Part shown: piece after piece, positions 28,619-34,339 of the stretch
Layout: each line of letters starts with the position of its first letter
Position numbering within the stretch: position 1 is the stretch's first letter
The notes under the pieces: model-generated
Databases searched by the model: none
What the model was told of the DNA's origin: nothing
What the model saw: the letters and a program-made list of their open reading frames with translations, nothing else
Assembly: GCA_014860575.1 (NCBI GenBank)
Contig: JACZJK010000005.1
Span: forward strand, 124,001 to 188,000
Length of the DNA stretch: 64,000 bases
Reading direction: 5' to 3'
Origin: Bacteroidales bacterium
GTDB taxonomy: Bacteria > Bacteroidota > Bacteroidia > Bacteroidales > JAAYJT01
Translations under genes and position numbers: made by a program

Positions 28619-29320
28619 TCAATACGGACCAATGACTTTTGTTACTAAATTGAATGTAAAACCGGAATCATTTATCCAGTCTTTGAACCCGATGTTTTCA
28701 AAGGTAAAACTAATGCTTTCAAATATTTCGCCTCCACTAGCCACAGACTGCTGCACACTTGAGACTTTCCAATTGGAGAGTTTTACTGAGTAATATGGTG
28801 TAGTTTGCCCGGGTGCATACATTTTGAATTCAATACCCCCATTCATCGAACCCGTAATCATCTCTTTGAAAAAGTTCACAGAATTGATGTCCTGAAGCTT
28901 GGAAATGGTCACATCCTGCATATTGGCATTGTTAATAGTGCCAAAATTGGAGCCTCCGTAAGACATAGCGAGCACATTGAAAATACCTGGCCCAAATGAA
29001 TTTGGGCCGAAGAAAGAATAAGTAATTGATTCGGTAGTCGTTCCTGACATTGGACTTGTGCCTGCCAAAGCATTCCAGCTGGCGCCGTTATGAAAGGCAG
29101 GTGATTGGGCGTTTATGTCATAAATCATTAACCCGGCAGAAGGGTTGCTTACGGAAGTGGTATCGTTAACCCTGGGAAGCATGAGACCCTTGTCAGGACT
29201 GGTAAGATCCAGCACAGAATTAGGACTGGGGTTAGTGGTTCCAATACCTACCTGGGCATTCAAATTAATAGTTGTTACAATCAGTAACATCGTCAAAACT
29301 AAAATACTAAATTGTTTCAT
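28619..29320 (-). CDS. secreted fibre-tip/Hcp-like protein
   Basis: 233 residues. The signal peptide ends INLNAQ. Residues 23-90 carry the Bacteroidota surface-fibre module VGIGTTNPSPNSVLDLTS, then DKGLMLPRV, shared with the large protein at 30161. Residues about 95-233 resemble the Hcp/TssD (type VI tube) fold: ITGSMNGGIEFKMYAPGQ, then YYSVKLSNWKVSSVQQSV, SGGEIFESISFTFENIGF. Hcp normally lacks a signal peptide, so this is an exported relative and not a T6SS component; no other T6SS gene is nearby. The assignment to the Hcp fold is by motif memory only. Confidence 0.6.
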   Translation of the reverse strand: MKQFSILVLTMLLIVTTINLNAQVGIGTTNPSPNSVLDLTSPDKGLMLPRVNDTTSVSNPSAGLMIYDINAQSPAFHNGASWNALAGTSPMSGTTTESITYSFFGPNSFGPGIFNVLAMSYGGSNFGTINNANMQDVTISKLQDINSVNFFKEMITGSMNGGIEFKMYAPGQTTPYYSVKLSNWKVSSVQQSVASGGEIFESISFTFENIGFKDWINDSGFTFNLVTKVIGPY

Positions 29321-29503
29321 GAAATTTTGATTAAATTGATTGAAATTGTCCCTACTCTCTTAAAGGCTTTTCGGGTTCGCCTGTCGAATTTATTGTTCGT
29401 TTTTTATTGTTGTCTTCTTTCAATGAACGCCCGAAACAATGAATAAAATTGTTATCAAAACTTTAGATTTTTAGACAATTGGCTTTATTTGATTGATTTC
29501 TGA

Positions 29504-30103
29504 CTACTGCCTGATCACTTTTTCCATATACAGGGTTTCCCCCTGTAGCACACGTACGATATAAATGCCGTTGGGATTGTTGCTTAGATTGAACTGGTAG
29601 CTTCTTTCGCTAAAGAGGGTGGTTTGCTGTATCAACTCACCCATCATGCCGTAAATCTCAACGTTTGCAATTGACGCTTCATCAGTTTCGGGCAGCTCAA
29701 GGAGAAAGAACCCCGTGGTGGGATTTGGATAAACTTTAATACCTGACTCTAATCGCAGGGCGTCATCAAATTTGATTTCAGGTAAGGGATGATCGCTTGC
29801 AGCAACAATGGATTTGGCATTTGTGCAATACATGCCATCAGTATCAATCCAGGCACGGAGGTAGCCGTTGGCTTCAACGAGGATTCCCGGAAGCAACAAT
29901 ACTGACTGCCCTGCAACCAGGTGAATAACTCCGCCGCTCTGAACCAGCAAATCCTGCACAGTTATCGTTTGCAATGCATCTCGCTTCATATCCTGCCCCA
30001 AGGTGTATTTATACTCCTTTGAAAAATCTTTGGTACACTCAAATATTTTCAAAATAAGCTTATGCGTATCTCGGTAAACCGGTAAATCATAGTACAAAGC
30101 CAT
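29504..30103 (-). pseudogene. chimeric ORF: Avd N-terminus fused to a T9SS cargo C-terminus
   Basis: 199-codon ORF in two unrelated parts. Residues 1-44 (MALYYDLPVYRDTHKLILK, then IFECTKDFSKEYKYTLGQDM) match the start of DGR accessory (Avd-like four-helix) proteins, which normally have about 110-125 residues. From residue 45 (LQTITVQDLLVQSGG) it is the coathanger-type stalk plus T9SS sorting domain (IKVYPNPTTGFFLLELPE, ending YMEKVIRQ), paralogous to the tail of the protein at 33182. There is no signal peptide, so the sorting domain cannot be exported; the ORF is most likely a dead fusion left by recombination. The junction shows microhomology (GCATTGCAAAC). It starts 57 bp after the stop of the putative variable protein, exactly where avd sits in intact DGRs. 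Confidence 0.7.
29826..29973. repeat. 148-bp near-identical patch shared with 33504-33651
   Basis: The two stretches differ at about three positions by eye, while flanking coding sequence of the paralogues is only roughly 80% alike. One end of the patch coincides with the Avd fusion junction, suggesting recombination or gene conversion. Confidence 0.8.
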
Positions 30104-30118
30104 AAATTTTCAAAATCA

Positions 30119-30131
30119 ACCGCTACGCGGT
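30119..30131. repeat. small hairpin between the variable protein and the Avd remnant
   Basis: ACCGC-TAC-GCGGT, a 5-bp stem with a 3-nt loop. Many DGRs have a hairpin downstream of the variable repeat that aids homing; this one is in the right place but shorter than usual. Confidence 0.35.
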
Positions 30132-30160: not shown

Positions 30161-33136
30161 TTAAAAAGCCCGGACGGCACGGACACGTCTGGTGTTGTCC
30201 TTATAGTAGTAGCCCTGGAAGCCATTGTAGAAATCCTGCCTCCAGGCGTAGTTAGAACTGAACTCAGAAGAACTCCAATAGTAGGTGTCAGTAAAACCGC
30301 TGCCTCCGTTTGCCCCTGCGGCAGCATTAATAGTTGCCTTGTTTTGATACATTATATTTAATTCTTCTTTTGAGGGAAGATACCAGTCGCCATAAGTTTT
30401 ACCTCCTTCGGTAACTTGCAGTTCATTACAAATGCGCGCTGCATAAGTGTTACCATCATCACCAATAGCTACATGAGCTGCAATAATTATTGAGGTATTT
30501 GCTTCGCCCGCATAAGGGCCGTCTCCTTTTGCCTGAGTATTACCATAAGTACCGGCAAACCATATTACCCCTGTACTTTGGTCCTGTTTAGCAGCTACCA
30601 AACCATGCTGTCCGGTTTCGTCTACCCAGAATACGATACCGCCTTGGGCAAAGTCGCCTACGGAGTAGGTGGTAGATGATGAAGATGAACCACCGCCAAC
30701 TCCCTTCCATTTATTAGTAGTTGCATCATAATAATAAAAACCTTTTGCAGTAATATCTGCTGTTTCTGGTGTAGTAGATGCAACACTTATATCATTTACA
30801 AAAATAATTGCACCATCTTGGTCTGCGCCATAAGCAGCCACTTTAGCGTCTAGTTGTGCCAAAGTTAGAGAGGGCACTTGCACACCGTCTGCGGTTGTTG
30901 TACTTGCTGGGTATCCTTCGACTTGTAGGGTGGTCTTAGGTGTTGTGGTACCAATGCCTACATTTCCATTGTCATATATACTGCTATTCGTAGTAAGTGT
31001 TCCGTTTTGCCATTTGGGGAGGTAATTGTTGGTTCCAACATCTACTAGCATATCTCCACTCGTTAATTCCACCGACCAATTATTTAACACGCCCTGATCA
31101 CCACCATATACATCAAACACTTTCAGAATCCACATGCCATTTGGGTTTATGTTACCCCCTCCAATTGCAGAAAAGCTACTAACGTTAGCGACAAAGCCAC
31201 AAACTCCAGGAGACAGGGAGCCAATTGGTAAAAATGTTCCGGTATAAGGAGGTAAACTTGAAGACAAGGGTTCAGCAAAATTGTCACAAAATTGTGTGTT
31301 CACAAGGTTGTCATCACCACCCCCATTATTTTTCATAAGATTAAGTTTATCACCGTTGGGGGCAATTAAATATATTTCCAGATCCGCTACAAATGTGTGA
31401 GTCAGGTTTATGGTAACACAAATATTTTCAGATTGAACAGACTCAGGAAAGCCTGCAACATGAATTGTATCGCTTACTCCATCAGGACAATTGTAATCTA
31501 CTATTGGAGTACCCGGTGCATTGCTTTGAGAAGCTAATTCTTCAATAGAATTTACCATTAATTTTCCCTGACTATCTGCATATATCTGCCTGAAACCTGC
31601 TCCTTCTAAATTTCTAACTCTTGCCTCGCCATTTACATCCAATAGTTCTGTAGGTGCTGCTGTCCCGATACCCACTTTGGTGTCTGAAGTGGCGCCATTC
31701 ACACCATTTATGCTTCCGAGTACTAAACTATTGCTTTGGCTAACCAAGGCATTAGCACCAATGGCAGTAGCGTTAGTTAATGCCCCTGATGCGACGTTTG
31801 CCTGGTAGCCAAGGGCTGTGTTACCCGTTCCTGTGGTATTTGCACCAAGCGCTGCAAAACCAACAGAGGTGTTGTTAGAACCTGAGGTGTTGTTGTAAAA
31901 GGCATCCCTGCCAACTATTACGTTATGTGTTCCGTTGGTTGTATTTATTCCTGCCTGGTGTCCAACTGCAGTATTTGGACCGTTAAGCGCATTTTGAAGC
32001 GCTCCGCCACCAATTGCAGTAATTGCATCTGTTCCGGTTTTGCTCAAAGCTGCCTGATGACCGATCGCAGTGTTCCAGGATCCGGTTGTATTATTCTGGA
32101 GTGCTGCAAAGCCATTGGCCACATTGTTAATTCCGGTGGTGTTTTGGCGAAGTGCATTTACACCATTGGCCACGTTATCATTTCCTGTGGTGTTGGAGAA
32201 GAGTGCAGATCTGCCATTTGCCGTGTTGTTAATTCCAGTAGTGTTGTGGTGGAGTGCCTCTACACCAGTGGCCGTGTTATTAATTCCTGTGGTGTTGTTA
32301 AAGAGTGCGAAAAAACCATTGGCCATGTTATCATTTCCTGTGGTGTTGTTAAAGAGTGCCAAAGAACCATTTGCCGTGTTGTTAATTCCTGTGGTGTTGT
32401 TTTGAAGTGCAGCAAAACCATAGGCCGTATTGGAATTTCCTGTGGAGTTGAAGTAGAGTGAAAATGTTCCACTTGCTGTGTTTTCATATCCTGTAGTATT
32501 ATTGTGAAGTGTAGCATACCCATTGGCCGTGTTGGAATTTCCTGTTTCATTTGAGTAGAGCGATCGAAAACCATTGGCCGTGTTGTTAACTCCTGTGGTG
32601 TTGAAATATAGTGCTTGTGCCCCATTTGCCGTGTTCCAATTTCCGGTGGTGTTGGAATACAGTGCTTGATAACCACTAGCTACATTGCTAGATCCTGCAG
32701 TATTGGAATAAAGTGCTGAAACCCCAAGGGCAAGGTTTTGGTTGTTTGAAAGGTCATCACTTGCTCCGGCGCCATCTCCAAGAAAAACACTGTTGCCACC
32801 TGTTCTCCCATCACTCAGATCATCTATTTTAGTAACCGTATTGCTTGTGCTACCATTTAGATTTATCCAGTCGGTTCCGTTAAAAAAGTAGAAACCATCT
32901 GCTTTATCAGTCTGGTAAACCAAAAGGCCAGTGGCAGGGGTGCTTATGGCTACACGTTGTGTTGAGTCCATCCGTGGGATTAAAAGTCCTTTGTCCGTTG
33001 ATTGAACATCCAGCATGGCCGATGCGGCGGGAGTGGCGGATTCATTGGCTGAGATCACTACACCCTGGGCAAACGACTTGCTTGTGAGAGTTGCGATAAT
33101 AAGTGCGAGCGAAATAATGAATATTATTATTTTCAT
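30161..33136 (-). CDS. secreted repeat fibre with P-domain and C-terminal C-type-lectin/DUF1566 domain, putative DGR target
   Basis: 991 residues. A signal peptide (1-24) precedes a fibre-base module with LDVQSTDKGLLIPRMDSTQR. Residues about 137-482 are 17-residue repeats of the form xxALxxNTTGxNNTANG (13 regular, then about six degenerate). Residues about 542-695 look like a proprotein-convertase P-domain (HTFVADLEIYLIAPNGDKL, GMWILKVFDVYGGDQGVLN). From about 825 comes a DUF1566/formylglycine-type C-lectin fold (GGIVFWVDETGQHGLVAAK, DWYLPSKEELNIMYQNK). The last 40 residues have the DGR target frame YWSSSE...AW.Q.F..G......K....RVRAVRAF, with NNC codons at most presumptive variable positions. 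It has no T9SS tail, so surface attachment is unclear. It is followed by the Avd remnant. Confidence 0.85.
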   Translation of the reverse strand: MKIIIFIISLALIIATLTSKSFAQGVVISANESATPAASAMLDVQSTDKGLLIPRMDSTQRVAISTPATGLLVYQTDKADGFYFFNGTDWINLNGSTSNTVTKIDDLSDGRTGGNSVFLGDGAGASDDLSNNQNLALGVSALYSNTAGSSNVASGYQALYSNTTGNWNTANGAQALYFNTTGVNNTANGFRSLYSNETGNSNTANGYATLHNNTTGYENTASGTFSLYFNSTGNSNTAYGFAALQNNTTGINNTANGSLALFNNTTGNDNMANGFFALFNNTTGINNTATGVEALHHNTTGINNTANGRSALFSNTTGNDNVANGVNALRQNTTGINNVANGFAALQNNTTGSWNTAIGHQAALSKTGTDAITAIGGGALQNALNGPNTAVGHQAGINTTNGTHNVIVGRDAFYNNTSGSNNTSVGFAALGANTTGTGNTALGYQANVASGALTNATAIGANALVSQSNSLVLGSINGVNGATSDTKVGIGTAAPTELLDVNGEARVRNLEGAGFRQIYADSQGKLMVNSIEELASQSNAPGTPIVDYNCPDGVSDTIHVAGFPESVQSENICVTINLTHTFVADLEIYLIAPNGDKLNLMKNNGGGDDNLVNTQFCDNFAEPLSSSLPPYTGTFLPIGSLSPGVCGFVANVSSFSAIGGGNINPNGMWILKVFDVYGGDQGVLNNWSVELTSGDMLVDVGTNNYLPKWQNGTLTTNSSIYDNGNVGIGTTTPKTTLQVEGYPASTTTADGVQVPSLTLAQLDAKVAAYGADQDGAIIFVNDISVASTTPETADITAKGFYYYDATTNKWKGVGGGSSSSSTTYSVGDFAQGGIVFWVDETGQHGLVAAKQDQSTGVIWFAGTYGNTQAKGDGPYAGEANTSIIIAAHVAIGDDGNTYAARICNELQVTEGGKTYGDWYLPSKEELNIMYQNKATINAAAGANGGSGFTDTYYWSSSEFSSNYAWRQDFYNGFQGYYYKDNTRRVRAVRAF
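30168..30283 (-). other. candidate DGR variable repeat (VR)
   Basis: About 116 bp at the 3' end of the fibre gene, from the codons for YYW to a GC-rich end (GTCCGTGCCGTCCGGGC) that would serve as the initiation-of-mutagenic-homing region. Codons at presumed exposed positions are TTC, AAC, TAC, TAC, TTC, GGC, TAC, TAC, GAC, AAC and ACC. All end in C, as expected if they derive from AAC in an adenine-mutagenised template. Invariant positions keep W, E, Q, G, K and the VRAVR tail. No template repeat was found in the window. Confidence 0.65.
32061..32726 (-). repeat. 51-bp coding tandem repeats (about 13 regular units)
   Basis: Words such as CCTGTGGTGTTGTT recur every 51 bp (for example 32286 and 32337) on the plus strand and encode 17-residue units of the fibre protein. 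Long antisense frames here are produced by the repeat and are not genes. Confidence 0.92.
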
Positions 33137-33181: not shown

Positions 33182-34339
33182 TTACTGCCTGATCACTTTT
33201 TCCATATACAGGCTTTCGCCCTGCAGCACACGCACGATATAAATACCGCGGGGCTTATCGCTTAAATTGAATTGGTAACTTCTCTCACCAATCAGTGTTG
33301 TTTGCTGAACAAGTTCGCCCATCATGCCGTAAATTTCTACATTGGCCCTTGAGTCTTCAACGGCCTCGGGTAACTCAAGTGTGAAACTACCGGTGGTAGG
33401 ATTTGGAAATACCCTGATTCCTGCTGAAAGCGGCATTGCTTCCTCAAACTTTATTTCAGGGATGGGCTGGTCGGCTACAGCTATGATGGCTTTGGCGTTC
33501 ATACAATACATGCCATCAGTATCAATCCAGGCACGGAGGTAGCCGTTGGCTTCAACAAGAATTCCCGGAAGCAACAATACTGACTGCCCTGCAACCAGGT
33601 GAATAACTCCGCCGCTCTGAACCAGTAAATCCTGCACAGTTATCGTTTGCACAGCATCAAAGCAGAGTTCCTGACCATTCGTTAAAGTAACATTTTCAAC
33701 CAGCCTGTTTAGTGGCACATCGCTCCAGTGGATGCGGTTAAAGGGATCGTTTTCATAAGCCTCTCCGGCAAAGTTTCCGCTGAAGTTAGTGAAGGTTACC
33801 TCGCCGATGTTCAGGGTTTTGGCTACATTGTATAATTCGTTGCCGGGTGTGGAAATAAATGCCACGCCAGCAATGGTCAGTTCCTGGCTGTTGTTGATGG
33901 TAAGGAATGTGCTGCTCGAGGCTCCGCTTTGGAAAATGCTGTTGTTGAGCGGCAAAGCCGGGTCAATGGTAGCGCCTGACTGGATATTCAATCCATCGCC
34001 ACTCATTTTTTCAAAAGTGGCGTATTCAGCGCCGATGGTTCCGCCGGAGCTGACTATGAACACAAAGTATCCGGCAGAGGTAACGGTAACAGGGTTGCCA
34101 TCTTCGCCCATGAGGGTTAGTTTGCCGCCGTCGTTAACTGTAAGGGTGTTGCCATCGCTGAGTATGAGGGATGAGCCGGATTCGATTTTCAGGTCGCCGT
34201 CATTGTCAATGTCAACGGCTCCATCCACATACATGACTGTTTCACCGGTCATAATCATGTTTGTTCCGATTTTGATGCCCTGGGCAAGGATAATGCCTGG
34301 CAGGCAAATTGCCGTAATGATGAGTAAAAGTGTTTTCAT
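33182..34339 (-). CDS. T9SS-secreted beta-helix-like protein
   Basis: 385 residues. The signal peptide ends GIILAQG. Residues 20-200 are short Gly/Asp-rich strands (DIDNDGDLKIESGSSLILSD, TLTVNDGGKLTLMGEDGN) suggesting a right-handed beta-helix. Residues about 220-290 form the coathanger-type stalk (CFDAVQTITVQDLLVQSGG) also seen in the chimera at 29504 and the giant protein at 48368. Residues about 305-385 are a type A T9SS sorting domain (IRVFPNPTTGSFTLELPEAV, ending YMEKVIRQ). It should cross the outer membrane by T9SS and be anchored or released after tail cleavage. Confidence 0.87.
   Translation of the reverse strand: MKTLLLIITAICLPGIILAQGIKIGTNMIMTGETVMYVDGAVDIDNDGDLKIESGSSLILSDGNTLTVNDGGKLTLMGEDGNPVTVTSAGYFVFIVSSGGTIGAEYATFEKMSGDGLNIQSGATIDPALPLNNSIFQSGASSSTFLTINNSQELTIAGVAFISTPGNELYNVAKTLNIGEVTFTNFSGNFAGEAYENDPFNRIHWSDVPLNRLVENVTLTNGQELCFDAVQTITVQDLLVQSGGVIHLVAGQSVLLLPGILVEANGYLRAWIDTDGMYCMNAKAIIAVADQPIPEIKFEEAMPLSAGIRVFPNPTTGSFTLELPEAVEDSRANVEIYGMMGELVQQTTLIGERSYQFNLSDKPRGIYIVRVLQGESLYMEKVIRQ

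Follow-up and report, generated by a model that had tools for sequence, protein, structure and literature searches.

A probable fossil diversity-generating retroelement on the chromosome of a Bacteroidales bacterium

Introduction

Is the C-terminal tail of a 991-residue protein of a Bacteroidales bacterium the target of a diversity-generating retroelement (DGR) and, if so, of one that still works? DGRs are usually detected through their reverse transcriptase (RT), and for this reason variable repeats (VRs) without an RT are overlooked. The sequence that we analysed, referred to here as the window, is a 64,000-nucleotide stretch of contig JACZJK010000005.1 (positions 124,001 to 188,000), and all coordinates below are counted from its first letter. 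A preliminary description made from these letters had proposed that the tail arose through a DGR. Below, we compare the tail with DGR cassettes in relatives, read what remains beside it, and search the genome for the machinery.

The target gene and its C-terminal domain

The gene lies at 30161–33136 on the minus strand and encodes a predicted secreted/surface protein with NTxGxxNTA-type repeats, a P_proprotein domain and a C-terminal Lcl_C (DUF1566-type) domain. The tail of the protein reads YYWSSSEFSSNYAWRQDFYNGFQGYYYKDNTRRVRAVRAF and is followed by the stop codon at 30163–30161 (minus strand). In profile searches, Pfam Lcl_C covers the end of the protein (E = 3.6e-12), so that the tail is the end of the domain. 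The last 167 residues, modelled with AlphaFold2 on an alignment of 42 relatives, reach a pLDDT of 94.5. The best PDB matches to this model in Foldseek are 8q4e, the Lcl C-terminal domain (E = 2e-8), and 4eps (E = 2e-3), both also matched by sequence profile at 16–28% identity; true C-type lectins match the model weakly in the structure search. The VR sits at the 3' end of this C-type-lectin-like domain, and its variable residues would, by analogy with the family, form a ligand-binding surface.

Relatives that carry cassettes

A scan of genome contigs returned 55 loci, mostly from diverse Bacteroidota, the nearest with 74–83% identity over the whole domain. Five of them (L009, L010, L011, L015 and L028) have a DGR-type RT (GNLTSQ ... 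YVDD) downstream of the homologous gene, in cassettes ordered target-VR, Avd (bAvd, PF22296), template repeat (TR) and RT. In the 105-nt core, every TR/VR difference falls at a TR adenine in L009 (19/19), L010 (18/18) and L011 (25/25). These three cassettes, from UBA4857, Mesohalobacter halotolerans and Geofilum rhodophaeum, respectively, have target domains 81–83% identical to that of the window. Between L009 and L011, 76% of VR adenine sites differ, against 1.3% of sites upstream, which bears out the expectation that relatives would vary more in the tail than elsewhere in the domain. In the case of L015, there are four non-adenine TR/VR differences, Avd aligns in two pieces and the RT contains stops, indicating that the cassette itself is decaying. 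A frameshift lies at the VR end of L028, near 1020–1056, and both cassettes are apparently in the course of decay. The Lcl_C domain is absent from the same-genus genomes, which leaves no means of placing the loss in time inside the genus. Across the order, 393 genomes were searched and 32 carry the domain, none of them with a closer relative than those from the first scan.

The window repeat compared with template repeats

By homology to the TR/VR pairs of L009, L010, L011 and L015, the VR extends over about 30169–30300 (minus strand), close to the 30168–30283 first proposed. It ends in a GC-rich stretch, GTCCGTGCCGTCCGGGCTTTT (30164–30184, minus strand), whose position suggests an IMH-like role. 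In the relatives, VR and TR are the same up to CGGG and then diverge, with GCT in the VR and GAT in the TR, the pattern expected of IMH/IMH*. The tail has a GC content of 50% and the remainder of the domain one of 46%.

The preliminary description had pointed to codons ending in C at the variable positions. The listed codons exist, but the list was selective, as the same tract holds AGT, TCT, GAT, AAT and TAT. Of the 30 pyrimidine-ending codons among the last 39, 17 end in C, compared with 38% elsewhere in the domain and 44% across ten nearby genes, and 106 of 953 equal-sized gene windows are at least as C-rich as the tail. Codon endings of this kind are not beyond chance, and were rejected as stand-alone evidence for a DGR.

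Stronger evidence comes from the TRs of L009, L010, L011 and L015, which stand in for the window's own. The window VR aligns with them gap-free and codon for codon; shifting the register by whole codons, as a control, loses the match at non-adenine sites. The window has a different base at 20 of the 41 sites with A in all four TRs, and a base found in none of the TRs at 6 of the 54 sites that are never A (Fisher p = 5e-5), so that, measured against relatives' TRs, the differences are concentrated at template adenines. In the AAY codons of the TR consensus, the third base is kept in 12 of 15, and 16 of the 30 first and second bases are changed; it is this register with the relatives' TRs, and not the codon endings, that constitutes the real evidence. 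The three third bases that are not kept (window codons TCT, GAT and AGA) imply that the window's own TR had diverged or that mutations came later. Divergence from L009 and L011 is 10% in the upstream domain and 16 and 14% at VR non-A sites, but 56 and 51% at VR A sites, showing an excess specific to adenine sites rather than a general one.

Remnants downstream of the variable repeat

After the stop codon comes an inverted repeat, ACCGCGTAGCGGT (30119–30131, minus strand), which occurs once in the window and in none of 100 shuffles. It has a stem of 4–5 bp and a 3-nt loop, GTA. All five RT-bearing cassettes carry CCGCGNAGCGG 27–28 nt past the VR, and no such repeat was seen in the examined sequence following the TRs of these five relatives. 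The VR-side repeat is possibly a target-recognition element, which would act in homing.

Further along, at 29977–30103 (minus strand), are the start codon and about the first 42–47 codons of a bAvd-like protein. The open reading frame begins MALYYDLPVYRDTHKLILKIFECTKDFSKEYKYTLGQDMKRDAL and has 62% identity to residues 1–47 of the L010 Avd (P0002); in a profile search the intact Avd homologue is bAvd PF22296 (E = 9e-23). The inverted repeat and the Avd start lie at +34 and +61 past the VR, compared with +28 and +59 to +64 in intact cassettes, and the remnants thus follow the VR in the order expected of a cassette. The window shares its VR register, the inverted repeat and an Avd start about 60 nt past the VR with L009, L010 and L011. 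Those three retain a complete Avd, TR and RT, whereas the window retains only about 45 Avd codons.

The Avd homology stops, and homology to a paralogue starts, at 29976–29981 (minus strand), where GATGC forms a 5-bp microhomology. Beyond this junction the locus has no RT or TR, and the remainder of Avd is gone. What follows is a truncated paralogue copy with a Por_Secre_tail, A' (29432–29980, minus strand), which copies the 3' part of the upstream gene A (33182–34339); 29980–29432 and 33658–33110 are 82% identical. The open reading frame at 29504–30103 fuses the Avd remnant in frame to this Por_Secre_tail sequence, and further Por_Secre_tail paralogues are found on contigs C43 and C5. Identity is higher at the start of A' (29980–29850 versus 33658–33528; 87–97% per 60 bp over the first ~180 bp) than in most of the rest (70–77%), which suggests a patch of gene conversion or recombination. 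Adjoining the relic, 28619–29320 (minus strand) encodes 233 residues of a predicted secreted protein, which weakly matches T6SS Hcp and carries an 'VGIGTTNPSPNSVLDL' module at its N-terminus.

Search for the machinery in the genome

The window's own assembly is 95% complete and consists of 66 contigs. No DGR-type RT was found in it, either with the RVT_1 profile or with a relative's DGR RT as query, and the latter also found nothing in two same-genus genomes. The only two RVT_1 matches (L006 and L007, C58:20481–22534) are an anti-phage Drt3a/Drt3b pair (PADLOC E = 6e-107 and 4e-201), clearly of the defence-type DRT3 kind, and were rejected as DGR RTs. As a control, a relative's DGR RT scores 73 bits against RVT_1, above the detected Drt3a match, so the search should have revealed any DGR RT. 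A pattern allowing any base to be a template adenine, with up to 3 mismatches, found no TR in the assembly, and a relative's TR as query matched the VR only. There is no second VR copy in the assembly at the DNA or protein level, no intact Avd, and no other close Avd besides the remnant. Short VR matches on C55, C40 and elsewhere on C5 were rejected as TRs, having chance-level E-values, and the one on C55 lies within unrelated sequence. Phage origin was likewise rejected: a scan of viral contigs gave just three distant matches (35% identity), and the gene sits among chromosomal genes.

None of the components of a complete active DGR, namely the RT, a matching TR and an intact Avd, was therefore found in the 95% complete assembly. 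The preliminary description had expected a TR and a DGR RT somewhere in the genome, and neither turned up. Its proposal of a DGR origin holds nonetheless, with TRs in close relatives, divergence at adenine sites and an Avd remnant immediately downstream. The description of the tail as a DGR target stands for the past and lacks support for a working system, as the cassette is broken inside Avd. Together, the absence of TR and RT from the assembled genome and the excess variation in relatives make it a former target, not a current one.

Partial cassettes and orphan repeats

Several relatives hold only part of a cassette. In L036, for instance, Avd reaches residue 78 and the remaining 1.2 kb of the contig contains no TR, L017 has Avd residues 1–57 displaced to +470, and L060 has a broken Avd with no TR or RT within 10 kb. 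In L014, L018, L024 and L025 the inverted repeat is kept and there is no Avd match, the contig ending 331 bp (L014) or 742 bp (L025) downstream; in other relatives the VR alone remains. A DGR RT is present in 6 of the 39 relative genomes searched, one of the six being distant (52% identity). The adenine signature (p < 0.001 and at least 13 of 15 third bases kept) occurs without a detectable RT in 13 relatives (L012, L013, L014, L016, L017, L018, L020, L024, L025, L036, L043, L044 and L052), many of the RT-less genomes being fragmentary metagenome bins in which a single absence is weak evidence; L016 and L052 are isolates. More distant family members (L035, L037–L039, L041, L050 and others) show no adenine-site excess.

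Pairs of orphan VRs can be compared directly. Differences at A sites (upstream in parentheses) are 0% (0.3%) for L021/L022 and for L024/L052, 5% (10.6%) for L016/L018, and 15% (8.8%) for L018/L044. Judged by these sequence comparisons, the orphan pairs behave as frozen, unlike the cassette-bearing L009/L011. Near-identical orphan VRs also occur in differently named taxa (L016/L018/L044, L024/L052 and L021/L022); L016, for example, is Gelidibacter japonicus, L018 a Bacteroidia bin and L044 a Flavobacteriaceae bin. This suggests that a frozen VR was inherited or transferred.

Discussion

Given the homology to VR, TR and Avd sequences, the adenine-site bias, the junction, and the lack of both RT and TR in the assembly, the tail is very probably a genuine DGR VR on a Bacteroidota chromosome whose cassette was lost by deletion, leaving a fossil DGR with a frozen repeat. 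We infer both the deletion as the event and the present inactivity. The ancestral cassette would have comprised the target-VR, the inverted repeat, Avd, TR and RT, and the last ~130 bp of the gene would have been rewritten through adenine-mutagenic reverse transcription of the TR and cDNA homing. A later deletion at the 5-bp microhomology, reaching in the simplest history from within Avd to within the paralogue beyond the RT, would have taken out the 3' portion of Avd, the TR and the RT, together with the 5' portion of the neighbouring paralogue. Alternatively, and less simply, a paralogue fragment may have been inserted and the remainder of the cassette lost. With its VR no longer rewritable, the protein would keep the last binding surface that the DGR produced.

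Other explanations must be weighed against this one. The VR could still be diversified in trans by an RT and TR on unassembled sequence, with only the local cassette copy truncated. Remote targets, and a duplicated DGR in which one copy has no RT, have already been described (PMC3521204), the assembly may lack about 5% of the genome, and the locus retains its VR-side inverted repeat. The assembly, however, lacks a DGR RT, a TR, a second VR and any other close Avd, and we consider diversification in trans unlikely. Less probable still is an assembly or binning error at the junction that conceals a true locus with an intact cassette. Such an error might be suspected in an assembly of 66 contigs with several copies of Por_Secre_tail paralogues, but the join shares only about 5 bp, which is not enough for a k-mer misjoin, the identity between A and A' is just 82%, no other contig carries an RT or TR, and similar truncations are seen in relatives.

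One could also argue that the tail belongs to an ordinary Lcl_C/DUF1566 domain that was never a DGR target and varies by ordinary divergence under selection. The YWSSSE...VRAVRAF motif is indeed general across the family, many of whose distant members are without the adenine-site excess, and C-ending codons alone are not unusual. The divergence from relatives' TRs is nevertheless specific to adenine sites, and the Avd remnant directly downstream, taken with the VR/TR register, in effect refutes this explanation, to which we give almost no credence.

Fossil DGRs have been proposed before, and the locus described here adds a well-preserved example to a known kind. VR fragments without an RT in Nanoarchaeota were called possible fossils or remote targets (PMC4372165); like the present locus, they show signs of past adenine mutagenesis in a VR at a site without an RT. 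The Nanoarchaeota genomes hold other DGRs, whereas none was detected in the window's genome, where the break point is resolved at base level and several stages of the loss can be followed in bacterial relatives; it is these points that are new here. The DGR of BPP-1 comprises mtd, avd, TR and brt, with a VR-side hairpin that has a GC-rich stem of 7–10 bp and a 4-nt GRNA loop (PMC3240598). The relatives share its order of target, Avd, TR and RT, and an inverted repeat shortly past the VR and not past the TR; the window differs in that its target is Lcl_C rather than Mtd and is chromosomal rather than phage-borne. The inverted repeat of the window fits the position of a BPP-1-type hairpin, but was rejected as one on its shorter stem and its 3-nt loop. 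Among the targets of DGRs, those of the DUF1566 type rank with the most common (PMC4159848, PMC6642488). The window domain resembles the C-terminal domain of Legionella Lcl (8q4e) and a B. ovatus fimbrial protein (4eps) in structure and in sequence profile; 4EPS was earlier compared with the DGR protein TvpA (PMC4159848).

In this study, an orphan VR was picked out from raw sequence, and comparison shows how the DGR probably died, at a junction inside Avd. We tentatively raise the possibility that Lcl_C targets in Bacteroidota repeatedly 'diversify, then freeze': the machinery may be lost at independent points and the last VR retained and handed on from lineage to lineage as a fixed module for binding, with orphan VRs outnumbering complete cassettes. 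Placing L016/L018 and L024/L052 beside L009/L011 allows frozen repeats to be compared directly with active ones. Frozen VRs would reveal which variants were worth keeping, and so bear on selection after hypermutation.
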